Assembly (NCBI GenBank): GCA_015179025.1
Contig: WHUX01000073.1
Span: 124,001 to 188,000 of the forward strand
Source of the DNA: Terfezia claveryi
Lineage: Eukaryota; Ascomycota; Pezizomycetes; Pezizales; Pezizaceae
Direction: 5' to 3'
Length of the DNA: 64,000 bases
Part shown: piece by piece, positions 36,181-64,000 of the stretch
Numbering within the stretch: the stretch's first letter is position 1
How the letters are laid out: each line of letters starts with the position of its first letter
Made by a program: the position numbers and the translations under genes
Notes under the pieces: generated by a model
The model's database searches: none
Told to the model about the DNA's origin: nothing
Seen by the model: only the letters and a program-made list of their open reading frames with translations

Positions 36181-36230
36181 TAGTCACCCATGTTTCACCT
36201 CGGTCTTGGTTTTGTGTTTTCTCCATTATC

Positions 36231-40170: not shown

Positions 40171-40877
40171 ATAGATTTGGAAGGGCAGTAGGGAAGAGAG
40201 GCCTATTTATTCATATTCTGAGAGCATTTGGGGTATGTCATAGATAACGTGTGCTTGTCATGGATAACGTGTACTTGTCATGGATAATGTGTGCTTGTCA
40301 CAGATTTTATAGGAGACATTCACAAGGTACCTGTGGCACTTTCCTTAATAACCCAAACCTATCTATATATAAAATATGTCTGTCAATCATGCTGTAGTAT
40401 ATCAATAGCGCACCAAACCTAATTCCAATCCAAGTGCGCAATCATCCATTCATTCCAAAATGGATCTACAATATTATCGTGGACATCATCTGAGTCCTCT
40501 GAGCTATATGGTGAGAGCTCACTTCTAGGCTCAAAGCATCCATCTGGCTTTGATATATTGTTGGAGATATTGGTCAAATCTAGTTGGAGTATGCTAGATC
40601 TCAATAGCTAATCGGGGCTGTCTGTGAGTTGCAAAATCTCGAGAGGTCTAGACATAATTAGCCTGCGTGCTATCTATGTACAAGGATTAGTAAGATACCT
40701 TCTTAAAGGCCGAAGCCAGACCTCTTGCCCACAACATAATACTGTTATCCTAAGTGGGGGATGCTATTATACTAGTATATAGACAGGATGCCAAATGATT
40801 CTGCTGTCAAGGATCCAGTAGGTCTGGGAGAGTATCTACAATAGGTATGTTAGCACTCCAATGTTTTAATGCAACAA
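40171..40877. other. Non-coding, TGTCACGGA-type repeats
   Basis: Immediately upstream of the hAT transposase. Three to four units TTGTCATGGATAACGTGTGC lie at 40252-40310. The minus-strand frame 40419-40604 is short and unidentified. Confidence 0.5.
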
Positions 40878-41404
40878 TTAACTTACCGATGGGTATTGAC
40901 AATCTTCACATAAACCCCATATCTCTCCCTCACCAGTCAGATAATGGTGGAAAAGGGTAATGCACAACAAATCATACATAGTATAGTCATCTAGGTAAAA
41001 GGGATCCCAAGTCGTCTTTGGACTCCTGTAGATACTCAAGAAGAGCAGTAAATCATACTGATTAATCCAAATCCTCTCTAGAAGCTCCATGGCTACCACT
41101 CGGGATATAATCTTGTTGGGGTCAAATCGGTCCATAACTAACTGTCTAGACTGGTGTGTTACCATTTCCATTCCATGTAGACTAAGGAACCATTGTATCC
41201 TAGCAGTATCTCTCCAGTGCTCCCGGAACTCTTTGAAACCGAGTTCATCTTCTGGATTGTGGTATACTGCCATATTTGTGTAGTAGTCTGGTTGGCACAA
41301 TGCCCGTTGTGAAGCTGATATGGATGGTGAGAATTACAACCCTGATGAACTATATATAAGCAAAACTCCAGATGATAGTTCTGGAAAGAATCCCTAAATG
41401 GCAA
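40878..41404 (-). pseudogene. Unidentified protein fragment
   Basis: A 140-codon frame (40878-41300) with protein-like composition: ELGFKEFREHWRDTARIQWF, then FDPNKIISRVVAMELLERIW, then WGLCEDCQYPSVS. It is preceded by another frame, LPFRDSFQNYHLEFCLYIVH, reading into it via a frame change or intron near 41290. No domain recognised. It lies between the hAT transposase and the basic/acidic gene. Confidence 0.4.
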
Positions 41405-42820
41405 TGTCCTCTTTTGATAGGTTGTTTAGTTATATCTGATTCTGCTTTAGAATTAGTAGACAAAAGTAGACTACTGTACTCCGCAGGTAATACTAATTGT
41501 ATCTTAAGGACCTGGCTCGCATTAGTCATGGGAAAGACCTGCGTGACCCACCTAGGACATGGCAAAAGATCTATGACAACACATCCGTGACAAGACATCC
41601 ATGACAAAATAAGCCATCCGTAATAATATAAAATATCCATGACAAGAAAAAATATCTATGACACATAAGTTTAGCACAAGCTACCCACCCAAATGGAACT
41701 ACCATCCTGATCTACTCTAGCCTAGTATTGAACTGCCACCTTCATTCATAATAGTACCATATCTACGAAAGCGATAGGTCGATGCATAATCTACAGCGAT
41801 TGACTAGTCAATAGGATAGATTGGTTATTATCAACCTATGTAGTTGAGGTCAAAGCATGCACTGATACACTTTGTTGTATACTATAAAAGTTAGTTTAGC
41901 CAGTAGAAAGTAGGCTGGGTGAAGTATTCTATCTGTCTCATGTGATAATGGTCAATGTATCTTCTCAAAAGCATTATTAATCCTGATATAGTCTAGTCGT
42001 TCACATCCATTGACCCATCAATTACTCTACTAGCAATAATGTCATTTATCATTTGCAGAGGTATAGGTAGTCTACTTGTATGAGCCTCCTTGTGAGGTAC
42101 AATGGGTCAAGGGGTCCAGGTCAAGCTAAGCCAGTTCCGAAACAGGTAACACATACTTAGGGATGTTTCAGGGAGTAACCAGAGATATTTTGGGGCAGTA
42201 GCTTGGGCCAGGGTCTGCTGAGGCCAGATAAATTCTACGTATCCCTATCTCGTACTACTCGATTAACTTCGATCCTCCATTATCTGCATCTCCCTAGCCT
42301 TTTGTCATTCCGCATCAAGCCACCTCCTATCTTTTATTACTATACCACAAGAAAGTATGCCAACTAATTTAACTATTAGGCAAAGAGGTGAAATTCCAGG
42401 GTTAAGGTATGACTTCCATACTTTTTTGCTTGCCCCATATGATATTGCATACATGTCCTGTGTTATTTGAGTAAGTGTGATAGCCATGTGGACTTGTCCC
42501 ATTTTACGCGGTTCCACTGAACAGATGATGATAATTGTTATTTTCCTGTTACCTTAAGCAGGTCATGTTTGAAGGGCATGGAAAACACATGTGCCACAAG
42601 GTCGTGTGGTTTCTTCTGCTGGAAAGTGATCTGTGGTAAGGAACAGGAAAAGGATGTATAGCGGTATTATGTGATAACTCACACTTGATTTGACATGGTA
42701 TTACTGGCTTGCAGCTAATTCCTTTTCACCCAAACTTCTAGTGGTTATCAAACCCGATACCGAGTGCGAAATCAGTTACGTTGTCTAATGGTAGAGGTGC
42801 CAGCCACCCCTAGTGAAGCC
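41405..42820. other. Non-coding or decayed; TCCGTGACA cluster
   Basis: A cluster of CATCCGTGACA-type units on the opposite orientation lies at 41540-41665. The minus frame at 42305-42517 is unidentified. No other structure seen. Confidence 0.4.
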
Positions 42821-42849
42821 GAAACTGAAGGAGATAATGAGAGGGGGTT

Positions 42850-43150
42850 TTGCAGGAACTAGTGGTGGAGATGCAGGAGGACAATCCTAAGCCAGGGGTT
42901 GAAAACAAAGAGAATGAGAACCTCTCTTTGTTAGTCCAAGTCCAGCAATCCCCATACTCGCCATTTGAACATTCCCAACCTGAACAACCTTCCCTGTCAT
43001 TTGACCCCCCCTGTTATTAACTCAAGAAGGGCAAGGTGGTCTCAAGAGCGGTCATCCCGGCGATGCCATGTTGTAAACAAAAGCGATGGCAAAGGCAGCA
43101 GGAAGCAGGAGTCATGGAGGAGGTCGCTGTGGGGGAAGTCTTACTATTGA
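42850..43150 (+). pseudogene. Unidentified coding remnant
   Basis: A frame with protein-like bias: ELVVEMQEDNPKPGVENKEN, then SPYSPFEHSQPEQPSLSFD, then a basic stretch (RRARWSQERSSRR). No start or domain recognised. TGTCACAGA clusters follow at 43490-43560 and 43660-43705. Confidence 0.3.
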
Positions 43151-43763
43151 CATTGGGCCAGGCTCTTCTGATTTTTATTTTGGCCCGATATCATTCCATG
43201 TTAACCAAAATTAAACCACCAATATATTCATGCGTAGACTTGACTGCAGGTAAAATTCACAATGATGGGTACACGCATCGTGGTGATGCTAGTCACGTGC
43301 CCGTGTTCGGTTAATAGCATTCAGGTTTGCTTGTAAACAAAGAATGAATTCCTTTATTTGCATGAACAGAGGTTTTTGGTAGTCATCTTCCATTTATCTG
43401 TAAATTCCAAGGAATCGTCAGCGCTTTAATGGTGATTTCTATCTATATAATCTATAGTGAAGATAACGAAGGGTATGTGTTCCAAAGCCATGTCACAGAT
43501 GCTGTCACAGAGGATGTCACAGAGGCTGTGACGGAGGTCGTGTCCAGAAATTTGAAGTTGAATGATAGTTAGCTTATTCACTGACTATCATTTATCTCAA
43601 TCACTGACATTCCCGTCTAAATAACTAGCAGAACCAAGACATATGTTTTGCAAAATCGTGTCATGGAGGTTGTCATAGAGGTGTCACGGAGGTCATGTCA
43701 AGGGAACGAGGTTGAGCCCAAAGTGGAAAAACTACTGACGAAGTTTGTGTTTAAGTATTCACA

Positions 43764-44180
43764 ATGCCAAACCGTCCTGAGAAGAAAAAGACAACTGGTA
43801 AAGTGCCAACTAGCCCGGCACTAGAACCTCCAATGCAGAAAAAAAGAAAGACAACCCTAGGAGTGCCAGCCAGCCCGGTTGCAAAGACACCGACAACTCG
43901 CACAGAGCATGTTCCCAAAAAAAGGAAGACAAGAGCAGAATTAGCTCAGCCAATTGAGGATGTTCCAAGAAGAAGGACAAGAGCCGAACTAGCCCTCATT
44001 CCACCCCCAGTTGAGAATGTTCCAACAAGAAGCATGCCAAGAGTGGAACTTGCCGAGGATGTTCTAAAGAATCTTTATGCCAAATACGCTGACTTCCCAT
44101 AAGGCTCTCGAGAGTTTAATCCAGACACAGAATTTAGTGGGGGGAGGAAGGCATGGGGCACCTCCACTAATCTCTATATA
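43764..44180 (+). pseudogene. Basic/acidic ORF, 5' part (split by gypsy element B)
   Basis: Starts at ATG 43764. The first 110 codons are rich in Lys, Arg and Pro with nuclear-localisation-like KKRKT blocks and a repeated RAELA/VELA motif next to DVP/NVP. A TAA at 44100 (Gln-like position) is followed by in-frame coding right up to the LTR at 44181. The continuation is found at 50325. Composition suggests a nuclear or chromatin-associated protein, an inference only. No family recognised. Confidence 0.5.
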
Positions 44181-44691
44181 TAAGACGTGGGCTCTGGGGA
44201 CAAGGCGACCAAGAGGTACGCCGGGGAGAAGGCAGGGACTAGGGCAAGACACACATAGGAACACTACGTGTGTGACTAGGGGAAGGCTGGGACGGGGAGG
44301 CAAGGGCAAGAGGCAAGAGGGGTAGAGGGCAAGGGGCACGAGACACGCGGAGGCAGTTGCCGTGTGTATCGGAGGGGGGCAGCTGTACTGCAGAGTTATT
44401 CACGGGACAAGGCAAGACGAGGGGGTGTACAAGGGAGGTATACCTTCACGGAGAGGCAAGGTCCTGTATTCGGTATACAAGACATTGGATAGGGATCCAA
44501 CGACAGTACGAGAGATAGGGGCTATATATATTCATGATTCCAGGCCAAGGCAAAGAAAGGAATAAGCTTCCCGAGATCCCTATCTCAGGAGCCAAACAGG
44601 ATAGCAATAACCTATCACCTGCGCCGCAGGTGATAAGCTATCACCTGAGTCGCAGGTGATGACAAGGACAACTAAGCATGCAGTTGTAATA
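44181..44691 (-). repeat. Element B 3' LTR
   Basis: 511 bp, aligned by eye to the 5' LTR and to the LTRs of A and C. The outer TGTCAC is changed to TATTAC. A palindromic block TATCACCTGCGCCGCAGGTG is present twice (44608-44664), once in the 5' LTR. The polypurine tract AAAGGGGGGATAG (minus strand) adjoins at 44692-44705. Confidence 0.8.
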
Positions 44692-44869
44692 CTATCCCCC
44701 CTTTAGGGTAGAGCTCCAGTGATAAGGAGGCTTAGGGCATGACAACCGGCAAAATCAATACAAGAAACAACAACAAGTGCAAGAACGAGAACCCTAACTC
44801 CAAACAACAACAAAGACCTATCACCTGCATCGCAGGCGATAACGGAGACAACAACAATAAGAACAAGGA

Positions 44870-47800
44870 CAAGAACCCCAACTTAAACATGGGGAGATCA
44901 CTCAACTGGATGGGGCTTCCTCAGGTATTGCTGATGGAACAGGGAGACAAATCCTGTGCATTCTCCAAGTCCTCAGCGAGTTGCCAAGTAGTCTCCTCAT
45001 CCCCTAACCATTTAACCTTGTATTGCAGATGACCATACCTCTTCCTTGAGTCCAATACCTCTTCGACCTCCCACTCCTCTTCACCCTAGATCACTACAGG
45101 AGGGGAAGAGAGGTATTTCTGCCCTGGGAGGGGTCATCCGCAGCGGGCTAGATCTCGGAGACATGAACAACCGAGTGCCGTTTGATATCTTTGGGAAACC
45201 TCAATCGATAGGCATGAGTTCCCACAGCTGCCAATACCTCAAAGGGTCCCAGGAATTTATGATCCAGCTTGCGGGAGGGGTGTTCTGTTCGGAAGTGCCG
45301 GGTGGAAAGCCATACTTTGTCTCCTGGCTGATATTTAGGGGCTGGCAACCGTGATCCATTAGCATACTCAGCTTGCCGGGCTTGTGCATATCCCAGCTCA
45401 GCTTTCTGGGTATGCTAGAGTTCAGCGATTCCAACCACGAACTCCTTAGATGGGGGGTGGGCTTTTTGCAGGGGCGCCAGGACATCCACGAACCGGGAGT
45501 GCCAACCATAATTAGGCAGGAAAGGGGAGGTTTTGGAGGATTCCGAGAACTGGTTGTTCATAGCAAATTCGCAGGTTGCCAGCAACGAAACCCAGTTATC
45601 CTGCTGGTAATTGACAAAGACCCGCAGATATTGCTTCATAATGGCATTCATCCTCTCCGATTGGCCGTCCGTCTGGAGGTGATATGCCATTGATAGATGT
45701 GCTTTGATCCCCAGAAGTTCCCAGAAGGCTTGCCAGAATTCTGAGGTAAACTGAGGGCCATGGTCAGATACGATCGATTCAGGGAGGCCATGGTATCGGA
45801 ATATATTATTGAGGTAAAGATTAGCTAACTCTGGGGTAGAGCAGGTATCCCGGCAAGGTATAGCATACCTCATTTTCATCAACCGATCCACTACTATCAA
45901 GATGGCATTGAACCTCAATCTTCTGGCAACCCTATTACGAAGTCTATAGTCAGGTGCAGCCACAGCCGATCAGGGATATCCAGAGGTTTCAGGGTCCCAT
46001 ACGGGGCGTGGCGGACAGGCTTAGCACGTTTGCAAACGTGGCAGTTCCGTATGTACCGCTCCATATCCTTCCGTTGGTCGATCTATATGTACTCCCTAGC
46101 CAGAAGCTCTAACGTTTTGGCCACTCCAAGGTGACCTGCAACCAGGCTGTCATGGTGTTCCTTGATTAATCAAAGGCGCAGCTCTCCTTCCGGCACATAC
46201 AGCCATTCGAGGTAGTAGAAGAGGCCTTCCTGGACAGTACACTCAGCTAGGGAGATCTTGAGGTGGCGGCGCTGGCCAGAATCCACTGCAGCGATAATTC
46301 CCTTAGTCAGGGGGTCATCCTCATATACCCGTCTCACCAGTTGTCGGAGGTCGGCTTCCATGGCAGCCTCGGCTTCCACATTAGCCTCAGCATCAGTAAG
46401 GACATTGGCCGCCAGATCAAGGTTTTCGGGCTTCAATACCACCTGATTTTGATATTTTAGCCTTTCATCCCTCTCCTTAGGGAGATCTCCTAATCTTCAG
46501 GTTAGCATATCTGGCTTGCCACCAGCTTTCCCAGGATGGTACTTGATCTTAAAGTTGAACCGAGAGAGAAATTCTGACCACCTGGCCTACCGTCGGTTGA
46601 GCAGCTTGGTGGTGGTAAAGTACTCAAGGTTTTTATGGTCGGAAAGTACTTCGATAATTCCCTTGACTGACTCCAGGTGTGGCCTCCATTCCTCGAATGC
46701 TTGTACAATGGCCATCAGCTCCTTGTCATAGATCTCGTAGTTGCACTCAGCTGGGGAATGCTTCTTTGAGAAATAGGCTACTGGGTGGAGGACTCCATCA
46801 ACATACTGGAATAGGATTCTGGCGGAGACATAGTCAGAGGCGTCCGTTTCCATGATGCACTCGCTATCGGGGTCAAAATAGGCCAGGATTAGGGCTGAGC
46901 AGAAGGCTTCCTTGAGGTTTTGGAAGGCGGATTGGGCTTCTGGATTCTAGTGGAAGGCCCTTTTTGTCAAGTATGAGCCAGCTTCTACCTTCGTTTTCAT
47001 CAAGGCCGTCAGAGGTGCTGCGATTCTTGAGTATACCAGGATAAATTAGTGGTAGAAGTTGGCAAATCCTAGGAAGGCTTGCACATCCTTCAAATTGGCT
47101 GGGGTTTCCCACTCTTAGATTGCAGCAACTTTGGCGGGGTCTACCCTAATACCTTCTGTAGTTATGATCAAGCCCAGGTACTTCACTTCTTGGACGTGGA
47201 ATTCGCATTTTTCAGGCTTAAGGTACAGCCCAGCCTGCTTCAGCTTCTCCAAGACTTACCTGATATGGATTTTGTGCTCTGCCAGAGTATTTGAATAGAT
47301 CAAGATATCGTCAATGTAAGCTATGCAGAACACATCCAGGAAGTCTCGTAGAGTGTCATTAATAAAGTGTTGGAAAGAGGCCGGGGTATTGGTTAAGCCG
47401 AAGGGCATGATGTTGTACTCGAAGTAGCTATAACGTGTATGGAAGGCAGTTTTCCACTCCTCCCCCTCAGCGATCCGTACCAGGTTGTACGCTCCTCTCA
47501 AGTCCAATTTGGTGAACCATTTTGCCTTGGAAAGCCTGGCTAATGTCTCTTGGATTAGAGGTAGGGGGTACCTGTTTTTGACCATTATCTCGTTCAGGCT
47601 ATGATAATCAACACACAACCAAAGAGAGCTATCCAATTTCTTCATGAACAGTACAGGAGCACCAGCTGGGGAAGAGCTGTGCCGAATGAAGCTTTTATTC
47701 AAGTTCTCCTCCAGGTACTTCTTCAGGGCCTCCAATTCCACTCGGGACATTCCGTAAAGGGGCCCATAGGGGGGGGTCTTACCCTCTACTAGCAGAATTG

Positions 47801-48640
47801 TGTGGTCATATGGTCGGTGGAATGCTAGCTTCTCCGCAGCTTTTTCCGAGAACAGATCAATGAACTTGTGATATTTATCCAGGACCATGGCCTTCCACTC
47901 CTCCTTAGGCCACATCTTATTGATTTCCAGGTTTACCTCATGTATAGACAGGGCATGAGCCTTCAGCTTGTGCCTCCTGGTGAGGTAAGCGAAAGCCCCT
48001 GCCCTGATAAAGCTAACGTTGAGGGACTTTGGGGTCACCAGGGGGATAGAGGGGACAGGGGAAATAGGGGGAACAGGGGAAACAGGGGGAACAGGGGGAA
48101 CAGGGGTAAACGAGGAGTGGGCAGCATTGATGTACACGGGCTGGTATACCACTTGGGCTGGGTGGATTATCGGGGGTGGTAATGCGCATAGCCTCGTGAT
48201 GGTGATTTTTGGACCTCCACAGTTTTTTCTGCAATAATAGCTGTTGAATTGCAAGGTGTATGAGCCGAAGCTGACTGACACATTATGCATTCTGAGCCAG
48301 AAGATCCCAAGCACAATTGGATATTTTAGTTTGGTCACAAATATTGGGAGGTCCTCCGAATGGACTCCAATGGCACTGAGCAGACACGCGAGGTCAATAA
48401 TAGCCCCAGAAGAGATGGGGCAGCCATCAATGACGTCGAGAAGGCGGGGGTCTTTAACTTTGAGATTGGTATGGAATTTTTACTAACGAAGGCCTGATCA
48501 ATGAATGCAATTCCCGAAGCACCACAATCAATGAGAGCTGATGTTACCACTGTTTTACCATTGAATTTAATAGTTATTGGTACTATAAAATGCTCCAAAC
48601 AAGCGAGATTCATCAACAGACATAAGTGCAGGCAAAGAAA
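44870..48640 (-). pseudogene. Element B pol (protease-RT-RNase H-integrase-chromodomain), broken
   Basis: Homologous throughout to element A pol. Visible blocks: protease DCGASG (48530), Pro/Val-rich spacer made of PPVSPVPP repeats (48030-48120), RT FCIAYIDDILIYSN (47310), RNase [11 protein letters not shown] (46840), integrase IVSDHGPQFTSEFWQAF (45750) and HLQTDGQSERMNAI (45660), chromodomain EEEWEVEEVLDSRKRYG (45050). At least a dozen stops or frameshifts. The plus-strand glycine-rich frame at 47868-48182 is an antisense shadow of the spacer. Confidence 0.8.
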
Positions 48641-48689
48641 ATGCAGACAAAGATAAATGCCCTATGCAGGTCCCTTGCTAGTGTCAGTA

Positions 48690-49811
48690 ACTAGGCAAGG
48701 GACAGGGCTTTTGCCAACTCATCAACCTCCTCGATCCTGGATTCGGAGATGGCGTGTGCGGCCATCGAGCAGTTTTTGCGGAGGGGACATGCCACGATAA
48801 AATGGTCCCCTTTTCCAATGCTATGCACAGCCCGTTCATCCGGCGGCGATCTCTCTCCTACTGGGTTAACCGTAGCCTACCTGCGGATAGGTCCATGGGG
48901 GCAGCCCACCCACTACCAAGGAGGTGTACAGGCTTGTTGACTGGTGTAGGTTGTTGTTGTTAGGTGCGTGCTGTCGAGAATGGTGTACGGGCAGTCGAGG
49001 TGGGAGTGTTTTTTGGGGGGCTCTGAGTGCCGCTGTCTAATGTTCCACTCAACTAGCTTGTTCAATAAGTTCCTCCAGGGTTTGGTCGTGGACAGTAAAC
49101 CAGAGCCTTTTTCAGCTCGAAGGTAAGCCCGTCTTTGAACTGATCGAGCTTGGCTTCGTCATTCCAATTGAGCTCTGCTGCTAGCCTGGAGAACTCAGTG
49201 ATATAGGCTGACAGTTCGTTGTATTTTTGCTTGAGGTCTCGCAGGGCTCTGCTGGCAGTTCTTTTAGGGTCAGGGTCCCCGAAGACTCGGTCCAGGATTG
49301 CCATTAGTGCCGGGATATCTACCAGATCAATTCCTGTTGCCTTGACGAAGGGCTGTACCTGGTCCATAGCTTTAGCCTCCAGTAGGCCATAGATATATGA
49401 GAGCTGGTGGTGAATCGTGGAGAACTTCGCCGAGTCCCCAGAGAGTTTTATTTGCACAGAGTTTTTCCATGCTAGTAACCGGCCCCGGTCCCCATTAAAC
49501 TTGGGCAAGGTTGGTAGGTCTTGTGTTTTCGGGTTCTTTGAACCATCGGCCAGGTCTAAAGCGTGAGTCAATCTCCGGATGGTTATCCTGTCCTCTACTG
49601 CATCTTCTCGGAGGAGGGTTATTTCGTCTTCGGCTTCTCGGATTCGCCTTTCGGCTTTCTGAAGGTCCGCTCCTTGTTGTTCGCCAATAGCATAAGTGTC
49701 TGTGAAGATCTCGATCACAGTTCGTCAGTATATTGATAGTTCTGCTGGGTCTGATGGGATAGGAGTCAGCCTCCAGGCTGTGAATCTTTCGGTGGGTAGT
49801 GTAATGTTCAT
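48690..49811 (-). pseudogene. Element B gag, broken
   Basis: Starts at ATG 49811 (MDINITLPTERFTAW), with a stop after about 30 codons, then the long frame 49718-49062 including coiled-coil AERRIREAEDEITLL and the retrotransposon Gag domain (LKQKYNELSAYITEFSRLAA). The zinc-knuckle region near 48800-48850 is damaged. Parallel to the intact gag of element A. Confidence 0.75.
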
Positions 49812-49848
49812 GGATATTGTACCGGTTGGTCTGAAAGATCCAACGTAG

Positions 49849-50324
49849 TGTGACATGGGCTCTGGGGACAAGGCGACCAAGGGGTACGCCAGGGCAAGGG
49901 CAAGGCTAGGGTAACACACATGTAGGAACGCTACGTGTGTGACCAAGGGAAGGCTGAGGCGGGAGGCAAGGGAAAGAGGCAAGAGAGGCAGAGGGCAAGG
50001 AACACGAGACACGTGGAGACAGTTGCCGCGTGTATCAAAGGAGGCAGCTGTGCTGCAGAGTTGTTTGTACGAGACAAGGATGTGCACAAGGGAGGTGCAC
50101 AAGCACTGGGAGAAGCAAGGTCCTGTATTGGGTATACAAGACGTTGGATGGGGATCCAATGACAGTACGAGGGACAGGGGCTATATATATACATGATTCC
50201 GGGCCAAGGCAATGAAAGGAATAAGCTTCCAGAGATCCCTATCTCGGGAGCCAAGCAGGATAGCAATAACCTATCACCTGCACCGCAGGTGATGACAAGG
50301 ACAACTAAGCACGCAGTTGTGACA
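49849..50324 (-). repeat. Element B 5' LTR
   Basis: 476 bp, ends TGTCAC...CATGTCACA in transcription direction. The inner flank CTACGTTGGATCTTTCAG, identical in A, would include the primer-binding site. The TATA-like TATATATA lies at about 50182. Confidence 0.8.
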
Positions 50325-51390
50325 ATACGAAAAAATTCGAGAAACATACAAGAAACTACTTGGACCCCGCTATCGTGGGAGTGAGCTAAGGACTGGAAAA
50401 GGCAAAAGGTAAATGGGTGCTCAAAGCAGGGATTAAGGAGGCCGAACACGCCACTACTACTGGAAGGGCAATAGGCACCTGAAGGGCCTCGTTAACTGAT
50501 ATGGAATAAGGCAACTTTGAACACTGGTTCAAAGGACTTGCGACCTATGTTTATCTGCAAAAAGGCATATATTTTGTACCAGTGGCATCAGCTATCCGAC
50601 GCAGAAGCGAGTCTATTTGAATTACAGGAGCAAGAAGAGCTCCCCGAATTCAAAATTCCAATGCTGAGTTGGAAGCAATAGGGGTAAAGCCAGTGCAGCA
50701 ATTCGCAGTAGTCATTAGCATTGTACCATCAACTACTAAGCCTATGCCCATTTGATGAGCCAACCGAATGTGACACAGTGTCTGGCACGGGACTAGTGAT
50801 ACAGGGCCCAACACACCACTAGCAATTGATAGCAGGATGCAGACTATATAAGAGGAGTTGGCTGAGGGGGTGCCGACGATTGCTTAAGTATGAGGACATT
50901 GGGGATATTGAAGAGGTAGATGTTCCTCGTGCTTGATCTAAATCTGAGAACTTTACTCACAAGTAGATAGGACTACGATGACAAACCAACAAGCAAGATA
51001 ATAACGAAGATATAGGACTATGGGGCCGATGGGTAGCTTCAGGAGGGTTCTTCAGAAGAAGAAGCTCAATCAACTGAATCCGACTCCAGCAAACAGGGAA
51101 AGGCATTGTCAGTACCTAGCGGAGATAGGCCTGCCGAATTGCTTCAAGCGACACCGAAGATGGGGACTATAGGGATTCCACCAGGAGAACGATTGCAAGT
51201 CAATGAATGAGTATATCAGCGGATTTTACATCAAGGTGCTGCATGATAACAAGCGACAACAATAAAGATGACAAAGGCGAGAAGCAAGTCGCAGGCGATG
51301 ATGGGGGAAAGATGAGCCAGCAGATGAGATGAGGGTGAGTATGATGATGAAGGTGACAATTACAGTGAGGATGGGGAAGAAGCAAACTAG
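50325..51390 (+). pseudogene. Basic/acidic ORF, 3' part (continuation from 44180)
   Basis: With element B and one target duplication removed, the frame LY-TKKFEKHTRNYLDP continues without a shift. Further blocks include EKAKGKWVLKAGIKEAEHAT, GNFEHWFKGLATYVYLQKGI and SSEEEAQSTESDSSKQGKAL, with stops and two frame changes, ending in a strongly acidic tail EYDDEGDNYSEDGEEAN and TAG at 51388-51390. Function unknown. The next gene downstream is the H3-like ORF. Confidence 0.45.
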
Positions 51391-52057
51391 GGAGGAGAAT
51401 GGGAACTAATTTGATTTCTTTTTAGTGTCACAGATGGAAAACATGTCACAGATGGAAAACTTGTCACGATGGAAACATATCATGGATGGAGAACTTGTCA
51501 CGGATGCTGTGAATGGTCGTTCGTTAAAATTTTCTGAGGTTTAATTGTATCTACTACTTTTGTGTTTGATTGTGTATTTTATTGTATCTTTGCTTGTATG
51601 TTTGTTGGATGACTACAGCCTGAAGCAAGGGGTATTTCGTTTTGTGTTGTTTTTGGATGTCTACGGTGTATGTAGAGATATTTTCTTTGTGTTTTTTTGA
51701 TGTCAACTGAGCACGCTAGGGGGTATTTGTTTTAGAATTATGTATATCTCTACGGGTATTTTCCTTGTATGTTTTTTTGATATAAACAGGCTAATGTGGC
51801 GTAACACTAAGGTAACGTTTTTTTGTTACTCCCTTTGTTATGAGTGAGCTAACAGATGGATGCAGATAAACAATGAATTATACTTTGTTGTAGAGCTCAA
51901 TGCTTGAGATCAGTCTATTTTTCGTCCACTTCGTGCCCTCAGGAACATATATATACAAGCAAACTTACTGTCCCAAACCTCAGATCCTTCGATTTGCAAC
52001 CTTCAGTCAGTGTGGATATTACACTTACTCTTTTGTACCCCCGAATACACAGATATA
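51391..52057. other. Intergenic with a TGTCACAGATGG cluster
   Basis: Four to five units of GTCACAGATGGAAAAC type lie at 51425-51515. The rest is T-rich spacer with no gene. The promoter of the H3-like ORF would lie here; ACATATATATACAAGC at 51943-51958 is a TATA-like candidate. Confidence 0.45.
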
Positions 52058-52611
52058 ATGGCCGGGAACAAACAACGAGCTAGGAATGTCAAGACGATAG
52101 TACCCCGAGAGTACCTACAGTGGTCCAAAAAAGAGAGGGGTACTCCCCAAAAAGAAAAGGGTACTCCCCAAAAAGAAAAGGGTAGTCCCACGAAAGAGAA
52201 GGGTAGATCGGCGTAACAACTCCCCCCAGTTCAATTTGAACTTGGAATGCTAAGTTTGCTGTCAGTGGCAATTATTAGACAAATTCGGAGACAACAGGCC
52301 AGCAGTCAATTAATCATTCCAAAGACTGTGTTCCGACGGTTATGTCGAGAGATCATACAGGATGTTAACACTGAATACAACAGTTATCCTACGATACTCG
52401 TGGGCGGACAAATGTGGAGAGAATTGGCATCATAGCAACAAATGCCCTCCAAGAGGCTACGGAGGCATACCTCCATGAATTTTTGACAAGTAATAAAGCA
52501 TATATCGTAGAAGGTCAGGGTGAGACTAACCAGGTGTATGAAATAGCAATCAACCTGTATGCAATACAGAGTGGAGACCGAAAACCCATCACGCCAAAAA
52601 TAATTCTATGA
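52058..52611 (+). CDS. Divergent histone H3-like protein, multi-exon
   Basis: Start ATG 52058 gives MAGNKQRARNVKTIVPREYL, matching the H3 tail pattern (A-x-x-K4-Q-x-A-R8, then P-R-x-x-L). A KGTPQKE-type repeat replaces residues 25-45. Proposed introns: 52203-52265 (branch-like GCTAAG), 52383-52435 or alternatively 52364-52419, and 52490-52546 (branch GACTAAC 16 nt before AG). After intron 1 the histone fold appears: IRQIRRQQASSQLIIPK, then FRRLCREIIQD (alpha-1), NALQEATEAYL (alpha-2), then INLYAIQ...ITPKI (loop 2/alpha-3). Each aligns with canonical H3 (IRRYQKSTELLIRK, LVREIAQD, ALQEAAEAYL, TNLCAIHAKRVTIMPKDI). Length 125-126 residues against 135. R2 and K9 are lost, and the last dozen C-terminal residues are missing. 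Intron 2 is uncertain, so a recent pseudogene is possible. It lies in transposon sequence. Confidence 0.65.
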
Positions 52612-53224
52612 AGGATGTGTGTTGTGGCATCAGGTGGAAGCCAATCGGCTATCTGGGGGTAATGTGACCTACTGCCCTACACCCCAAGCACCACCAGTAC
52701 TACCATCACCCTCATCATCCTCCTCATCATCCTCCTCATTCCTCCTCATCATCACCGTCATTACTATCATTACCCTCATCATCATTATCATCAGAATCAT
52801 CGTCTTCACTATCACCATCAGTTTCGCCGTCGACTAGATCACGGCATCAGTTGGTGCCCCGCCATCTCCTGCAACTCCTCCTTCGCCAGCATCAGTTGGT
52901 GCCCCATGATCTCCTACAACACCTCCTTCGCCAGTACCACCTTTACACCTTCAGCATGACCTACACTGCTGGCATCGCCTACATTGTCATTGCGTTCTGA
53001 CGATGTATGGGGAATGGAAGGAAGAGGCCAGGAGTAGGGCATTTGACTTTTTCTATAGGGTTATTTTTTTGGGTTGTGTTATGTATTTGGGAGATAATAT
53101 CTTATGATAGCTCCGTTTTTTTTTTTTTTTTTTTTTTTTAGGTTATATAAATTGTGATGGTAGAAATGAATGTTAGGAGAGCTCATAATCTGGGTGAAAC
53201 ATAATTTGCCAGAATAGACAATTC
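52612..53224. other. 3' flank of the H3-like gene; low-complexity runs
   Basis: Contains a CATCATCCTCCTCATC-type simple repeat at 52695-52815, two ATCAGTTGGTGCCCC repeats (52846-52912), and an uninterrupted T run of about 23 at 53118-53140. Open frames rich in Ser or Ile here are artefacts of the simple repeat. Confidence 0.5.
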
Positions 53225-53625
53225 TGTAACAACTTGAGGCAATTCCGTGACGACTATGGGACAGTGAGAAATGGCAACGATTCCATAACTACAGATCCGT
53301 CCTCCTGTTATGGATCCGTCCTCCTGTCACGGATCCATCCTCCTGTCACAGATCCGTCCTCCTGCCACGGATCCATCCTCCTGTCACAGATTGCCCCACC
53401 TGTCATGGATTTCTCCTTCTATTACTGACTTGAACTTTTCCTTCCTGCTCAATCCTTACCACCATTTCTCAACTGCGTTCTACTAGTGGCTAACCTTCCG
53501 TCCATTCCCCCGTCGTTCTCCTGTGTAATCTTACCCTGCCTTGCGTGCTAATGTGAATTACATTCATTGATACCTCATCAATTTCTGCACACTTTGATTC
53601 TCATAAAACGAATCTTTTTAATCCA
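53225..53625 (+). repeat. Copy 2 of the direct repeat with TGTCACGGA array
   Basis: Units GGATCCGTCCTCCTGTCAC repeat about six times at 53285-53400, then about 200 bp starting GACTTGAACTTTTCCTTCC, matching 36231-36757 in the same orientation. It lacks the hairpin insert found in copy 1. Confidence 0.7.
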
Positions 53626-53699
53626 AGCAATCCGTAGTATGTTCAGTTAAATTTAAACCGAATTATATGAGAAACTGGTCCTCCAGTCGAGCAATATAT

Positions 53700-53873
53700 G
53701 TCAGTAGATGACACTAAGGCTTGGCGAGTAGTCGACGGCTACTTGGCACTGCCCCGAGTAATTCAGAGCAACATATAGCCGACTGGCCGAGTTGGAGGCT
53801 TGGGCAAAACTCGGCCGTCGGCGTGAGTCTTGGTGAGGCAGCACAGGGAAAAATCGCCTCGGTGTGTACACTA
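53700..53873. repeat. hAT-like terminal region (right)
   Basis: Inverted counterpart of 36037-36180, rich in CGAGT/ACTCGGC words and containing GGCTTGGGCAAAACTCGGCC. It ends GTGTACACTA at 53873, exactly where gypsy element C sequence begins, so the DNA element appears inserted in C. Confidence 0.5.
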
Positions 53874-55642
53874 GCTGCACTTGACTATGGACTTCGTAAC
53901 AGGGTTGCCGGAAGATTCAGGGTTTAATACCATCTTAATAGTGGTGGATCAGTTGATGAAAATGAGGCATATTATACCTTGCTGGGATACCTGCTCTGCC
54001 CCAGAGTTAGCCAATCTCTACCTCAATAATATATTCTGATACCATGGCCTCCCTGAATCGATTGTATCTGACCGTAGCCCCAGTTTACCTCAGAATTCTG
54101 GCAAGCCTTCTGTGAACTTTTGGGAATCAAAGCACGTCTGTCCACAGCATATCACCTCCAGACGGATGGCCAATCAGAGAGGATGAATGCTATTATGAAG
54201 CAATATCTGCGGGCCTTTGTCAATTACCAGCAGGATAACTGGGTTTCGTTGCTGGCCACCTACAAATTTGCTGCAAACAACTAGTTCTCGGAATTCTCCA
54301 AAACCTCGCCTTTCCTGGCTAACTACGGTTGGCACCCCCGGTTCATGGATGCCCTGGTGCCTCTGCGAAAAGCCAAAAAAGATGCCCCGGCCAAGGAGTT
54401 CGCGGTTGGAATCACTGAACTCCACCATACCCTGAAAGCTGAGCTGGGATATACACAAGCCAGGCAAGCTGAGTATGCCAATGGATCACAGCTGCCAGCC
54501 CCCAGACACCAGCCAGGAGACAGGGTGTGGCTCTCCAGCTAGCACTTCCGAACAGAACGCCCCTCCCACAAGCTGGATCATAAGTTCCTGGGCCCCTTTG
54601 AGTTATTGGCAGCTGTGGGAACTCACGCCTATCGATTGAGGTTTCCCAAAGACATCAAACGGCACCCAGTTGTTTATCTCTCCAAGATTGAGCCCACTGT
54701 AGATGACCCTCTCCCAGGACAGAAACACCCCCCACCCTCTTTAGTGGTTATCGAAGGTGAGCAGGAATGGGAGGTGGAGGAGGTACTAGACTTGCGGAAG
54801 AGATATAGGCTTTTGTAGTATAAGGTTAAATGGTTGGGGGATAAAGAGTCAACCTGGCAACCTGCCGAAGATCTGGAAAATACACAGGACTTGGTTGCCC
54901 TGTTCCACCAACATTACCCCCGGAAGCCCCACCCTGCCCCAAGATGTTCTTATCATCCTGAAATTGGTTATTAGGGTTGTTATTGTCGTAGTTATTATTG
55001 GTACGTACTCCTGGCATTGGAGACGTGTTATGGGTTATTAGTTACTTGTCCGCCTTGTTTGTTTGTTTGTTTTTGCCTTGTCTTTTGCCTTACTTTTCAT
55101 CGATGGGGCTCCGAGCCTAAAGGGGGGATAGTGTCACAACGTCCTTTCATACCCAGGTTTGAGAGTCAGACGGGATTCCGTCCGACTCTCGTTATTGTTG
55201 ATTGATATTATTGTTATCTCTGTTTCCGAGATAAGGGGTCTTGGGAACCTTATTCCTTCTAGTGGCATTGGCCAGGAAGGAAGCCTGTATATATAGCTTG
55301 CTCTCTCTGCCCTCTCGTTGGATCCCCATCCAATGTCTTATATATCCAATATAGGGCTTTGCTTCTCTCCCGTTGGTGAATCTCCCTTATGCACCTCCTT
55401 GTCTCACCTCGACTCTGCAGCCCTGCTGCCCACCCCGGAACCTCCTGTCCTTGCCTTGCCTTGCCTGGCCTCTGCAGCCCTGCTGCCTCCTACTACTCCT
55501 GTGTGCCTTTTTTGCCCTCACTCTTGCCCCTGTCCTAGCCTTTCCCCAGATCATACACCTAGCGCTCCTACATGTGCGATTCCCCCTTGCCACTGCCCCG
55601 GCGTACCTCTTGGTCGCCTTGTCCCCCAGAGCCCTCGTTACA
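53874..55642 (+). mobile_element. Ty3/gypsy element C, 3' part only
   Basis: Same family as A and B but in plus orientation. Begins inside the integrase catalytic domain (MDFVTGLP at 53889) and continues through SDRSPSLPQ-type frameshifted sequence, TDGQSERMNAIM (54160), the chromodomain EQEWEVEEVLDLRKRY (54760), polypurine tract AAAGGGGGGATAG (55119-55131) and the 3' LTR. Gag, protease and RT are absent; they should lie beyond the other end of the DNA element that truncated C. Stops (for example TAG at 54540 and 54816) show it is inactive. Confidence 0.8.
55132..55642 (+). repeat. Element C 3' LTR
   Basis: 511 bp, from TGTCACAACG to CCTCGTTACA. Contains TATATATAGC at about 55290 and one copy of the CTAGCGCTCCTA-type stem-loop near 55558. 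Outer flank CCTCT. Confidence 0.8.
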
Positions 55643-58228: not shown

Positions 58229-58788
58229 TGTAATGAGGGCTCTGGGGGACAAGGCGACCAAGGGGTACGCCGGGGAAGTGGCAAGGGGTAATCGCACACG
58301 TAGGAGCGCTACGTGTGTGATCGGGGGAAAGGCTAGGGTAAGACACACGTAGGAACGCTACGTGTATGACCAGGGGAAGACTGAGACGGGGGCAAGGGCA
58401 AGAGGCAAGAGGCAAGAGGCAAGAGGCAAGAGGCAAGAGGCAAGAGGCAAGAGGCAAGAGACATGAGACACGCGGAGGCAGTTGCCGCGTGTGTCAAGGG
58501 AGGCAGCTGTACTGCAGAGTTGTTTGTTCGAGACAAGGATGTGCACAAGGGAGGTGCACAAGCGCTGGGGGAAGCAAGGTCCTGTATTGGGTATACAAGA
58601 CGTTGGATGGGGATCCAACGAGAGGGCGGAGGGACGAAGATATATATACATGATTCCAGGCCAAGGCCGTGGAAGGAATAAGCTTCCCGAGATTCCTATC
58701 TCGGAAGCTAAGATAACAATCACCCATCGACGACACCCAAACAAGCCTGTTCGAGTGTCAAATCAAGACTAAGAACACGGTTGTGACA
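58229..58788 (-). repeat. Element A 3' LTR
   Basis: 560 bp, TGTCACAACC...CTCATTACA in transcription direction. It includes a run of about nine CCTCTTG heptamers (58393-58460) and two stem-loops of the form CACGTAGGAGCGCTACGTG (58292-58312) and CACGTAGGAACGCTACGTG (about 58346-58364). TATA-like TATATATA at about 58639. Polypurine tract AAAGGGGGGATAG adjoins at 58789-58802. Confidence 0.85.
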
Positions 58789-58976
58789 CTATCCCCCCTT
58801 TAGGCTGGAGCTCCAGCGACTAGGAGGCCTGGGCACGATAACCGGCAAAGTCAACACAGGAAACAACAACAAAGGCAACGACAAGGATTCCAACTCCAAA
58901 CAACAAGAAGAACGAGAATAGCGAGAAGAACGAGAGTCGGACGGGCCCCACCGTATGACTCTCAAAAGACACAACA

Positions 58977-61900
58977 TCATTCCATTGGGCGAGGCTTCCT
59001 TGGGTATTGCTGGTGGAATAGGGCGACCAAATCCTGCGCATTCTCCAAGTCCTCTGCGGGTTGCCAGGTAGCCTCCTCATCCCCTAACCACTTGACCTTA
59101 TACTGAACTCGTCCATAGCGTTTCCTTGAGTCCAGTACCTCCTCAACCTCCCACTCCTCTTCACCTGCGATCACCACTGGAGGAGGTGGGGGGTGCTTTT
59201 GCCCGGGAAGGGGATCGTCGGCGGCTGGCTCAATTTCCGATATGTGTACAACCGGGTGGCGTTTGATGTCCTTGGGGAACCTCAATCGATAGGCATGAGT
59301 GCCCACAGCAGCCAACACCTCAAAGGGTCCCAGGAATTTATGATCCAGCTTGCGGGAGGGTCGTTCTGTTCAGAAGTGCCGGCTGGAAAGCCACACCTTG
59401 TCTCCTGGCTGATATCTGGGTGCTGGCAACCGTGATCCATTGGCATACTCAGCTTGCCGGGCTTGCGCATATCCCAGCTCGGCTTTCAGGGTACAGTGGA
59501 GTTCAGCGATTCCAACCGCGAACTCCTTAGCTAGGGGGTTGGCTTTTTGCAGGGGCGCCAGGGCATCCACAAACTGGGGGTGCCAACCGTAATTAGCCAG
59601 GAAAGGGGAGGTTTTGGAGGATTCCGAGAACTGGTTGTTCGCGGCGAATTCGCAGGTGGCCAGCAACGAAACCCAGTTATCCTGCTGGTAATTGACAAAG
59701 GCCCGCAGATATTGCTCCATAATGGCGTTCATCCTCTCCGATTGGCCGTCCGTCTGGGGGTGATATGCCGTTGACAGGCGTACTTTGATCCCCAGAAGTT
59801 CGCAGAAGGCTTGCCAGAATTCTGAGGTGAACTGAGGGCCACGGTCGGATACGATCGACTCAGGAAGGCCATGGTATCGGAATACATTGTTGAGGTAGAG
59901 ATTGGCTAACTCTGGGGCGGAGCAGGTGTCCCGGCAAGGTATAACATGCCTCATTTTCGTCAACTGATCTACCACCATCAAGATGGCATTGAACCCCGAA
60001 TCTTCTGGCAACCCTGTCACGAAGTCCATAGTCAGGTGCAGCCACGGCCGATCAGGGATATCCAGAGGTTTCAGGGTCCCATACGGGGCATGGCGGACAG
60101 GCTTAGCACGCTTGCAAACGTGGCAGTTCCGTACGTACCGCTCCACGTCCTTCCGTTGGTCAATCCATGTGTATTCCCTGGCCAGAAGCTCTAACGTTTT
60201 GGCCACTCCAGGGTGACCTGCAACCAGGCTGTCATGGTGTTCCTTGATCAATCGAAGGCCCAGCTCTCCTTCCGGCACATACAGCCGTTCGAGGTGGTAG
60301 AGGAGGCCTTCCTGGACGGTACACTCGGCTAGGGAGATCTTGGGGTGGCGGCGCTGGCCAGAATCCACTGCGGTAATAATTTCCTTGGCCAGGGGGTCGT
60401 CCTCATATGCCTGTCTCACTAGTTGTCGGAGGTCAGCCTCAGCTTCCGCAAGGGTATTGGCCGCCAGGTCGAGATTTTCAGGTTTCAGTACCACCTGATT
60501 CTGGTACTTCAGCCTTTCATCCCCCCCTTTAGGGAGATCTCCTGATCTCCTGGTCAGTGCATCCGGCTTACCCCCAGCTTTTCCAGGCCGATACTTGATC
60601 TTGAAGTTGAATCGAGATAAGAACTCCGACCACCTAGCCTGCCGTCGGTTCAGCAGCTTAGTGGTGGTGAAGTACTCAAGATTCTTATGATCGGATAGCA
60701 CCTCGATGATCCCCTTGGCTGACTCCAGGTGAGGCCTCCATTCCTCAAAAGCTCGGACAATGGCCATTAATTCCTTATCATAGATCTCGTAATTACACTC
60801 CGCCGGGGAGTGCTTTTTGGAGAAATAGGCCACTGGGTGGAGGACTCCATTGACATACTGGGACAGGATTCCGGCGGAGACATAGTCGGAGGCATCTGTT
60901 TCCACGATACACTCGCTATCGGGATCAAAGTGAGCTAGTATGGGAGCTGAGCAGAAGGCTTCCTTGAGGTTCTGGAAGGCGGATTGGGCTTCTGGACTCC
61001 AGTGGAATCGCCGGTCCTTTTTGGTCAGGGCTGTGAGGGGGGCCACGATCTTGGAATATCCTAGAATGAACCGTCGGTAAAAGTTGGCGAATCCCAGGAA
61101 GGCCTGGACATCCTTGAGATTTGCTGGGATTTCCCATTCCTGAACGGCGGTGACCTTAGCAGGGTCCATTCTAATACCTTCCGTGGTGATGATCAACCCT
61201 AGATACTTAACCTCCTGCACATGGAACTCGCATTTCTCGGGCTTGAGGTACAACCCAGCTTGCTCCAGCTTCTCCAATACCTGCCGGACATGGAGTTTGT
61301 GTTCCGCTAGGGAGTCCGAGTATATGAGGATATCGTCCAGGTAAGCTGTGCAGAACACATGGAGGAAGTCCCGCAAGGTGTCATTGATAAAGTGCTGGAA
61401 GGAGGCTGGGGCATTGGTTAGGCCAAAGGGCATCACATTATACTCAAAATGGCCATATCGTGTTCGGAAAGCAGTTTTCCACTCCTCCCCCTCGGCGATC
61501 CGTACCAGGTTGTAAGCCCCTCTCAAATCCAGTTTGGTGAACCATTTGGCCTTGGAGAGCCTGGCTAATGTCTCCTGAATTAGGGGTAGGGGGTACCTGT
61601 TTTTGACCGTTATCTCGTTTAGGCCCCGGTAATCGACGCACAACCGGAGAGAGCCGTCCGATTTCTTCACGAAAAGCACTGGGGCACCCGCTGGTGAGGA
61701 GCTGTGGCGAATGAAGCTCTTGTTGAGGTTTTCTTCCAAGTACTTCTTCAAGGCTTCCAGCTCCACCCGAGACATTCCGTAGAGGGGCCCATAGGGGGGG
61801 GTTTTACCCTCTATCAGCGGGATAGTGTGGTTGTACGGTCGGTGTGGTGCGAGCTTCTCCGCGGCCTTCTCCGAGAACAGGTCGATGAATTCGTGGTATT

Positions 61901-62699
61901 CGTCCGGAACCATGGACTTCCACTCCTCCTTGGACCTCGTTTTATTGATCTCCAGGTTCACATCATGTATGGACAGGGCATGTGCCTTCAGCTTGTGCCT
62001 TTTAGTGAGGTAAGCGAAGGCCCCTGCCCCGATAAAGCTAACGTTGAGGGACTTTGGGGGCACGGGAGGGACATCGGGAGCAGGGGAAACAAGGGAAACC
62101 GGGGGATTGGTGGCATCGATGTGTGCGGCCTAGTGTACCACCTGAGTTGGGTGGATTACGGGGGGCGGTAATGCACACAGACCAGTAACGGTGGCCTTTG
62201 GCTCTCCGCAGTATTTGCGGCAGTAAGGGCTATTAAAATGCAGGGTATAGGAGCCAAAGCTGACCGATACATCGTGCATCCTAAGCCATGGGATTCCGAG
62301 GACAATTGGATACTTGAGTTTTGTAACGAACATAGGGAGGCTTTCGGAGTGGTCCCCAATCTGGGCAGGAGTACATGCAATATCGGTAATGGCTCCAGAA
62401 GAGATAGGTCGGCCATCAATGACATCGAGGAGGCTGGGGGTTTTGAGCTTAGAGGTGGGTATGGCATACTTACTGACAAAGGCCTGGTCAATGAAGGCAA
62501 TTCCTGAGGCTCCACAGTCTACGAGAGCTGATGTGACGAGTGTTTTACCATTGAAGGATATCGTGATAGGTACAACAAAATGCTCACCAAATAGGTGAGA
62601 CTCATCAACAGACATAGAAGGAACAGAAAAAGACGACAAAGACAGGTGACCTAGTGCAGGTCCCTTGCTAGTGTCAGTGACTATGCAAGGGACAGGGCT
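58977..62699 (-). pseudogene. Element A pol: protease-RT-RNase H-integrase-chromodomain
   Basis: Entered by a likely -1 shift at 62699-62705. Protease active site DCGASG (about 62520). A TAG at 62130-62132 replaces a Gln codon. RT block LCVDYRGLNEITVKNRYPLP and catalytic FCTAYLDDILIYSD (about 61340). RNase [15 protein letters not shown]. Integrase zinc region HHDSLVAGHPG...CHVCKRAKP (about 60210-60110) and core DFVTGLPEDSG, IVSDRGPQFTSEFWQAF, HPQTDGQSERMNAI. TGA at 59370-59372 replaces an Arg codon seen in B (RHFRTE). After it, 59369-58977 encodes the chromodomain (EEEWEVEEVLDSRKRYG, YKVKWLGDEEATWQPAEDLE), which targets integration to modified chromatin in chromoviruses. Both stops are transitions; otherwise the ORF is intact over 1,200 codons. 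Confidence 0.9.
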
Positions 62700-63817
62700 T
62701 TTCCCGCCTCATCAAGCTCCTCAATCCTGGGTACTGGGGTGTCGATTGCGTGGACGGCCAGGGAGCGGTTCTTGCGGAGGGGACACACCACGATGAAATG
62801 GTCCCCCTTCCCACATGCAATACACAAACCCTGAGTGCGGCGACGGTCCCTTTCCTCCTGGGTAAGACGAGGCCTACCTGCTGACAGGTCCATGGGGGCA
62901 GCCCCACCCGCTACCAGGGAGGGGTGTGCAGGCTTGTTGACCGGTGTGGGTTGTTGTTGGGTGCGCGCTATTGGGAAGGGGGTACGGTGAGTCGAGGTCG
63001 GGAGTGTCTTTTGGAGGGCTCTTAGTGCCGCTGTCTGCTGTTCCACCCAGCTAGCTTGCTCAATAAGCCCCTCCAGGGTCTTGGTCGGTGGGCAGTAGAC
63101 CAGAGCCTTTTTCAGCTCGAAGGTAAGCCCGTCTTTGAACTGGTCGAGCTTGGCTTCGTCATTCCAATTGAGCTCTGCTGCCAGCCTGGAGAACTCGGCA
63201 ACATAGGTTGACAGTTCGTTGTGTTTTTGCTTGAGGTCTCGCAGGGCCCTGCTGGCGGTTCCTTTAGGATCCGGGTCTCCGAAGGCTCGGTCCAGGATTG
63301 CCATTAGTGCTGGGATGTCTACCAGATCAATCTCCGTGGCCTTGACGAAGGGCTGTACCTGGTCCATGGCCTTACCCTCCAGTAGGCCATAGACATATGA
63401 GAGCTGGTGGTGGACGGTGGGGAACTTCGCCGAGTCCCCAGAGAGTTTTATCTGCACAGAGTTTTTCCATGCTCGTAGCCGGCCCCGGTCCCCATTAAAC
63501 TTGGGCGGGGTGGGTAGGTCTTGTGTTTTCTGGGTTTTTGGACCATCGGTCAGGTCCAAAGCGCGAGTCAGTCTCCGGATGGTTATCCTGTCCTCTGCTG
63601 CATCTTCTCGGAGGAGGGTTATTTCATCTTCAGCTTCTCGGATTCGCCTTTCGGCTTTCTGAAGGTCCGCTCCTTGTTGTTCGCCGATGGCATAAGTATC
63701 TGTGAATATCTCGATCACAGTTCGTCGGTATGCTGATAGTTCTGTCGGGTCTGATGGGATCGGAGTCGCCATCCAGGCTGCGAATCTATCGGTGGGTAGT
63801 GGAATGTTCGCGAACAT
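62681..63817 (-). CDS. Element A Gag with CCHC zinc knuckle
   Basis: The first ATG inside the element is at 63817 (MFANIPLPTDRFAAW); the open frame extends back into the LTR but that part is not expected to be translated. 378 residues: N-terminal coiled coil (DLQKAERRIREAEDEITLLR), retrotransposon Gag domain (NGDRGRLRAWKNSVQIKLSG to LKQKHNELSTYVAEFSRLAA), then a zinc knuckle CIACGKGDHFIVVC (C-x2-C-x4-H-x4-C). Ends at TAG 62681-62683, six codons after the slippery heptamer. No internal stops. Confidence 0.9.
   Translation of the reverse strand: MFANIPLPTDRFAAWMATPIPSDPTELSAYRRTVIEIFTDTYAIGEQQGADLQKAERRIREAEDEITLLREDAAEDRITIRRLTRALDLTDGPKTQKTQDLPTPPKFNGDRGRLRAWKNSVQIKLSGDSAKFPTVHHQLSYVYGLLEGKAMDQVQPFVKATEIDLVDIPALMAILDRAFGDPDPKGTASRALRDLKQKHNELSTYVAEFSRLAAELNWNDEAKLDQFKDGLTFELKKALVYCPPTKTLEGLIEQASWVEQQTAALRALQKTLPTSTHRTPFPIARTQQQPTPVNKPAHPSLVAGGAAPMDLSAGRPRLTQEERDRRRTQGLCIACGKGDHFIVVCPLRKNRSLAVHAIDTPVPRIEELDEAGKALSLA
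62699..62705 (-). promoter_or_regulatory. Candidate -1 frameshift site GGGAAAA
   Basis: In the Gag frame the codons are GCG GGA AAA, i.e. G_GGA_AAA, which fits the X_XXY_YYZ slippery pattern. Shifting back one base opens the protease-RT frame without a stop from here through the protease. Element B has GGCAAAA at the same place. Confidence 0.6.
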
Positions 63818-63848
63818 CGTACCGGTTGGTCTGAAAGATCCAACGTAG

Positions 63849-64000
63849 TGTAACGAGGGCTCTGGGGAACAAGGCGACCAAGGGGTACGCCGGGGAAGTG
63901 GCAAGGGGTAATCGCACACGTAGGAGCGCTACGTGTGTGATCGGGGGAAAGGCTAGGGTAAGACATATGTAGGAACGCTACGTGTGTGACCAGGGGAAGA
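63849..64000 (-). repeat. Element A 5' LTR, partial
   Basis: Matches the first 152 bp of the 3' LTR (58229 onward) with five transitions. The remaining roughly 400 bp lie beyond the window. Confidence 0.9.

Follow-up and report, generated by a model that had tools for sequence, protein, structure and literature searches.

The window, a 64,000-nt stretch of Terfezia claveryi DNA whose contig is labelled C701 in our searches of the host assembly (72.6 Mb, 794 contigs), contains an A-subfamily copy of a hAT element that carries an H3-like histone gene. This copy occupies positions 36035 to 53873 (~17.8 kb, or ~11.7 kb without a nested gypsy-type element), as indicated by a right end that recurs exactly in copies with different flanks and by a hAT domain inside. 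The right terminal repeat (53853–53873, minus strand; inward reading TAGTGTACACACCGAGGCGAT) is the end found in other copies, in agreement with the hAT-like end reported in the first-pass annotation of this locus. The left terminal repeat TAGTATACACATCGGCTCGAG (36035–36055, plus strand) is a probable, tentative assignment made by eye, with 15 of 21 bases matching the inward-read right terminus; an automated search for A-type termini with up to five mismatches gave no match at 36035, and no target duplication was seen in the window. A degraded hAT transposase lies at 37114–39058 on the minus strand; its dimerisation domain (37615–37824, corresponding to C701:161615-161824 in the genome search) matches PF05699 with 63.9 bits (cut-off 21.4), and the four longest tblastx blocks share 60–78% identity with the element on contig C773.

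A central gene, on the plus strand, is split by the gypsy-type LTR element (~44182–50324, plus strand), the LTRs of which (44184–44634 and 49852–50293) are 85% identical. The 5′ part of the gene (43760–44181, start approximate) is homologous to an open frame in the A copy L069 (L069:2637-3548), and the 3′ part (50325–51400, end approximate), which includes an acidic C-terminal exon, was delimited with the L069 frames 2637–3548 and 3578–4003; the DNA from 50325 to the right end at 53873 matches L069 at 92.7%. Neither the central gene nor the other frames scored above the cut-off of any Pfam family, PDB matches of the central gene had E values of 0.04 or worse, and its AlphaFold model had a pLDDT of 42.6. 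Spacings of 14 kb had raised the suspicion that the hAT unit moves as a whole with its gypsy insertion; this was rejected, as the gypsy junction was spanned only in C701 and C82 among the 42 rows retrieved (best 40 of 437 candidates scored). These two contigs also have their right flank in common and so look like one duplicated stretch; a right flank is likewise common to C506 and C56.

The H3-like gene itself (52058–52645, plus strand) consists of three exons. Exon 1 (52058–52212), placed by alignment to relatives, encodes the tail and is frameshifted in the window copy; exon 2 (52266–52489) encodes αN, α1, a long loop L1 and α2, as supported by alignments and a PDB H3 match; and the exon 3 core (52547–52645, end approximate) encodes a long L2 and α3, as supported by alignments and the full-fold PDB match of a relative. 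Intron 1 (52213–52265, 53 nt, GT..AG, GTAACAAC..TGTCAG) was placed from sequence only, and intron 2 (52490–52546, GT..AG), placed by alignment, is 57 nt in the window and 58 nt in most A copies. Three introns had been proposed at first. The intron at 52490–52546 proved correct to the base by sequence comparison; the one at 52203–52265 is present, with its start moved to 52213, where a phase-1 junction restores the H3 frame when read with related copies; and the one in the middle was ruled out, the break being a 1-nt deletion against related copies. Compared with other copies, the window gene has lost 4 nt and 1 nt in exon 1 as well as the 1 nt in loop 1, and has gained 1 nt in exon 3. These indels account for the KGTPQKE repeat, the apparent third intron and the short C-terminus, which are therefore decay of the window copy by alignment, and the repeat and the shortened C-terminus, earlier taken as properties of the protein, are frameshift products rather than family traits. 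The assignment to H3 stood in part: positions 52217–52432 match PDB histone H3 (best E 3.9e-6), but reach only 20.8 bits against the Pfam Histone profile (PF00125), under its cut-off of 26.4, and exon 3 alone had no histone match. Judged against its relatives, the window gene represents a decayed version of an H3-variant gene borne by a hAT family.

The relatives give a clearer view of the protein. In their own frames, the copies have two predicted introns of 53–77 nt, GT..AG and in phase 1, and in 40 distinct A/C/D-type copies aligned the splice dinucleotides are mostly kept even in decayed copies; as exceptions, donor 1 reads AT, CT or TT in several of them. The profile search suggested as a check in the first-pass annotation gave 45.8 and 44.8 bits for the spliced A and B proteins and 39.3 bits for a C-type protein that is a chimera of two copies, all exceeding the Pfam Histone cut-off. 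This chimera matches PDB H3 chains from the tail to α3 (best E 2.4e-9), the best 60 of 169 matches all being named H3. The fold is complete (αN, α1, α2 and α3), with α3 aligning with H3 TIMPKDIQLARR; the AlphaFold model of exon 2 is weak (pLDDT 62.0) and has three helices in H3 order. L1 and L2 are DNA-contact loops, and by alignment the A protein exceeds H3 by 14 residues in L1 and by 5 in L2, the L1 insertion being common to subfamilies A, B, C and D. The A protein also retains R49, R52, R53, K64, F67, R69, R72, R116, T118 and D123; R63 is replaced by P and another residue stands in place of K56, which makes the stability of a nucleosome uncertain.

Subfamilies B and C and some A copies have a protein that starts with M(A/V)RTKQ, most A copies one that starts with MAGTKQ; the RTKQ start is the H3 K4 site. 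No start codon with RTKQ was found in subfamily D (L030). The reported loss of R2 applies to most A copies, which have G, and not to the family, as R is present in L014, L028, L029, L032, L034, L063, L072 and L073. Beyond the start, the tails differ widely among subfamilies, and no canonical ARKS K9/K27 site occurs in the tails read. Because ARKS is missing and L1 and L2 are longer, the element protein is, on its sequence features, an H3-like variant and not canonical H3. A protein database search with the B protein returned nine candidates, none at E 0.001.

A divergent tail and a longer loop 1 are also features of CenH3, so the gene might be a host centromeric or variant H3 gene merely sitting in repeats. 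We give this reading practically no credence. In an 11-row tree of four element proteins with H3 and CenH3 reference rows, the element proteins formed one group (100/100) outside H3 and CenH3, separate from the CenH3 group (93/94); they also have no W at the CenH3 α2 place, and both features disfavour a CenH3 identity. Pairwise scores were mixed, the B protein scoring 132 against host CenH3 and 113–116 against H3. In addition, a separate gene that we classify as host CenH3 exists (L001, C773:158053), and the H3-like genes are enclosed by the terminal repeats of the element. Apart from CenH3, the assembly yielded one full H3 gene only, L002 (G000:C153:8707-9078); its tail is altered (APRKQ IKQQFQQAAHKVARKVAHTSNSG GVKK), and an assembly search with standard H3 gave nothing better than L002 and CenH3; the altered tail may reflect an assembly gap or a real change. 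The introns of the element genes do not coincide with the intron places read in L002.

A genome search for copies, another check that had been suggested, used one exon 2 as query and returned 112 rows. Removal of two host rows and merging of neighbours left ~101 H3-like copies, a lower bound because the search scores the best candidates only, and a manual count found exon 2 open across at least 78 of 80 residues in 25 of the 112 rows. The copies share one right end, ...CACACTA, and the A-type right end was present at 18 of the 26 loci inspected, next to 16 different flanks. When 149 of 150 matches to the hAT dimerisation domain were related to the 101 copies, 37 had the domain 5–16.5 kb upstream on the opposite strand; it lay upstream on the same strand in 2, downstream on the opposite strand in 1 and downstream on the same strand in 5.

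The limits of the element are clearest on C773, where a 12,596-bp copy is flanked on both sides by a perfect 8-bp target-site duplication (TSD), TGAGTATT, and has inverted termini that are identical at 22 of 22 bases. This terminal repeat had 103 matches in the assembly at up to two mismatches, compared with none for the reversed control. Among the 100 matches listed, six contigs (C773, C54, C419, C246, C21 and C44) contain a terminal-repeat pair 12.6–19.5 kb apart that encloses both the hAT dimerisation domain and an H3-like copy, in each case on opposite strands and with the histone 1,557–1,575 bp from the element end. The domain lies at C773:773774-773968 and scores 45 bits in L075. The element thus shows the 8-bp TSD, the terminal inverted repeats (TIRs) and the transposase with dimerisation domain that define hAT elements, and the earlier proposal that a mobile element carries an H3 variant of its own is supported by these paired repeats, the copy number and the exact duplication. 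A TSD search for the C62 element found none, and that for the C355 element matched the known right end on C355 and one place on C140. The C773 transposase domain contains one in-frame TGA and the central gene is broken in L072, so no copy has been demonstrated to be autonomous. Paired copies of this terminal repeat also occur ~2.6–3.1 kb apart without an H3-like row on C7, C31, C104, C190, C198, C214 and C277, among the matches listed, and these are probably non-autonomous derivatives. A 618-bp element at L072:7390-8007, with A-type ends and AATATCAC flanking both sides, is a short derivative adjoining a B element.

A hAT element may capture an H3 gene that then hitchhikes and drifts unused, and in the available text of both earlier papers on H3-carrying hATs (PMC3538342, PMC6710886) such passive capture is how the authors read their own cases. 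Here, many copies contain stops or frameshifts, and the C pair L028–L029 has a pN/pS of 1.5, on six changes only (B copies have 0 or 2 changes). However, over ~107 codons of exons 2 and 3, dN/dS between subfamilies was 0.12–0.14 for A–C, 0.21 for A–D and 0.12–0.13 for C–D; it was 0.13–0.15 for A–B and 0.14–0.16 for C–B, both unsure at dS >2, and the D–B pair gave no ratio because dS was saturated. The resulting range of 0.12–0.21 is close to the 0.17 obtained for the transposase (413 codons; the window transposase itself is decayed) and provides evidence of purifying selection on the histone between subfamilies. Also against passive capture, the splice dinucleotides, RTKQ and the loop insertions are common to diverged subfamilies, and exon 2 is still open in 25 of the 112 rows. 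We therefore regard unused passage as unlikely. Because selection has kept the histone across several lineages, the element seems to need it.

The rest of the element gives a similar picture: dN/dS was 0.16 for the 3′ block of the central gene and saturated for the 5′ block. Alignment of A (L069) with B (L072) at the DNA level recovered the central gene and a terminal piece only, whereas a translated search brought out the histone exons and short pieces along with the central gene, indicating that the coding parts are what was kept. Taken at sequence level, this is a hAT family with three gene regions (transposase, central gene and H3-like histone) in which the H3 variant is a long-standing part, and we are highly confident that it represents a hAT element with a selected H3 variant. 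Individual copies decay nonetheless: 21 A copies showed 498 transitions and 52 transversions, with C-to-T rates of 0.172 at CpG, 0.100 at CpA, 0.038 at CpC and 0.020 at CpT, a RIP- or deamination-like pattern.

Tandem arrays of the TGTCACGGA type accompany the genes. A repeat search placed them in the window element in the left subterminal region (36230–36335), between the central and H3-like genes (51426–51506, plus strand) and in the right subterminal region (53291–53414, plus strand). Allowing one mismatch, TGTCACGGA occurs 32 times in the 11.7 kb of the window element, not at all in the nested gypsy and five times in the remaining 46.2 kb; when the element was shuffled 30 times by mononucleotides, the motif averaged 2.1 occurrences and never exceeded 5. 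The two parts of the C773 element on either side of 775251–778200 contain it 13 and 33 times and the part covered of the C355 element 24 times, and the sites in the elements lie near the ends, between genes and in intron 2 of B. The arrays might offer sites to the transposase or to a guiding protein. Their position near both ends and between genes, and the roughly equal constraint on histone, central gene and transposase, would suit a structural part of the transposition complex, a histone fold that packs ends and arrays for the transposase with no marking of chromatin. Such a part would not require the H3 tail start to be kept as RTKQ, and we consider this role improbable. Adjoining the left subterminal array, positions 36342–36538 form a near-perfect, MITE-like palindrome with arms 87% alike.

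The best overall explanation, which we hold with slightly more belief than doubt, is that the histone is useful to the element and acts on the element's chromatin, rather than being a passively captured fragment. That the H3 variant acts through chromatin at all is likely; it probably changes the chromatin of the element and may thereby counter silencing. An effect on anti-silencing or accessibility of the element itself is plausible, though we place it somewhat short of even. Under this explanation, the element's spliced transcript would supply the histone, which would pair with host H4 and enter nucleosomes formed on the element; the transposase or the central protein may direct it there by way of the TGTCACGGA arrays. 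Such nucleosomes, having the RTKQ start and longer DNA-contact loops but no canonical K9/K27 sites, would carry less of a silencing mark and remain accessible to the transposase. A K4 site without K9/K27 contexts would fit an anti-silencing device, yet the transition-rich decay of many copies implies that they are not well protected, so any protection would be imperfect. The complete histone fold and the many copies would also allow action in trans on the host, in which the element protein, as a poison or diluting H3, would loosen the chromatin of the host or compete for H4 with host H3 or CenH3. The altered tail of L002 could hint at such a conflict, but a gap in the assembly may explain why no standard host H3 was seen, and action in trans is, in our judgement, unlikely.

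hAT elements with an H3-like gene are already known, having been published in 2013 and 2019 (PMC3538342, PMC6710886), and the present element resembles that type in having a transposase and an H3-like gene between TIRs and, as in Pyrenophora tritici-repentis, a central ORF. According to the accessible parts of Manning et al. 2013 (PMC3538342), an H3-like gene is present in many copies in a hAT element of Pyrenophora tritici-repentis; its protein is neither H3 nor CenH3 and has tail insertions, histone ESTs were seen, and drift was suggested. The presence of many copies, the protein type and the tail insertions are shared with the element described here, as is the order of transposase, central gene and H3-like gene. 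Compared by description, the P. tritici-repentis element is ~5.6 kb (with a 2.3-kb form) and has 26 nearly identical genes, whereas the present element is at least 12.6 kb and comprises several diverged subfamilies that show evidence of purifying selection.

Dhillon et al. 2019 (PMC6710886), in the portions available, described H3-carrying hATs in Pseudocercospora fijiensis and five other Mycosphaerellaceae as dissimilar to the P. tritici-repentis element and their copies as RIP-inactivated and intronless. hAT ends, an 8-bp TSD and transition-type decay are shared with the present element, and the H3-like copies there number in the hundreds. Again by description, those elements are ~9.5 kb with a 20-bp TIR, lack introns (pointing to transcript capture) and had no dimerisation domain found, whereas here introns, a 22-bp TIR and the dimerisation domain are present and 25 of 112 rows have an open exon 2. 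Capture of a retrocopy, as in P. fijiensis, is therefore unsupported by the intron-bearing genes here. One of the two H3-like copies per element in that study has a 16-residue insertion, possibly equivalent to the L1 insertion of the present element.

An analogy, and only that, is offered by the VANDAL transposons of Arabidopsis, which in the text consulted (PMC5735166, PMC10398659) likewise have an extra protein beside the transposase and tandem repeats in non-coding parts. Their VANC proteins are anti-silencing and their targets are often tandem repeats (PMC5735166); VANC is not a histone, and it binds DNA motifs and removes DNA methylation (PMC5735166, PMC10398659).

In the accessible text of published open-access papers, we did not find long-term purifying selection stated for an element histone in several co-existing intron-bearing lineages. 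What appears to be new, on the sequences compared, is that several lineages with introns and intact exons exist and that the histone has been under long-term selection. The available summary of the 2013 study asks whether captured genes face selective pressure and, if so, why (PMC3538342); the four subfamilies in one genome, with the histone kept at about the constraint of the transposase, bear on this question. What was a gene-capture curiosity thereby becomes a testable example of a transposon that may influence the chromatin it lies in, and structural and chromatin studies gain a set of diverged, partly intact histones whose DNA-contact loops are long. A broader and rather speculative idea, which we think has a low chance of being right, is that H3-carrying hATs form one old lineage that brings along a nucleosome component of its own, assembled on the element under guidance of its arrays and proteins; this component would keep K4, escape K9/K27-type silencing and thereby hold the element open, and the captures in other fungi would be decayed or recent members.

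Several other features were seen in the window. An ARAGORN tRNA call at 3182–3267 has a two-base anticodon and is probably spurious. Dense minisatellites and repeated segments lie at 14770–15881 and 21333–22826, a GGCAAGA array of ten units lies at 58391–58460, and further gypsy-type copies related to the nested one, with 76–85% identity, occupy 53874–55638 and 58333–63954.
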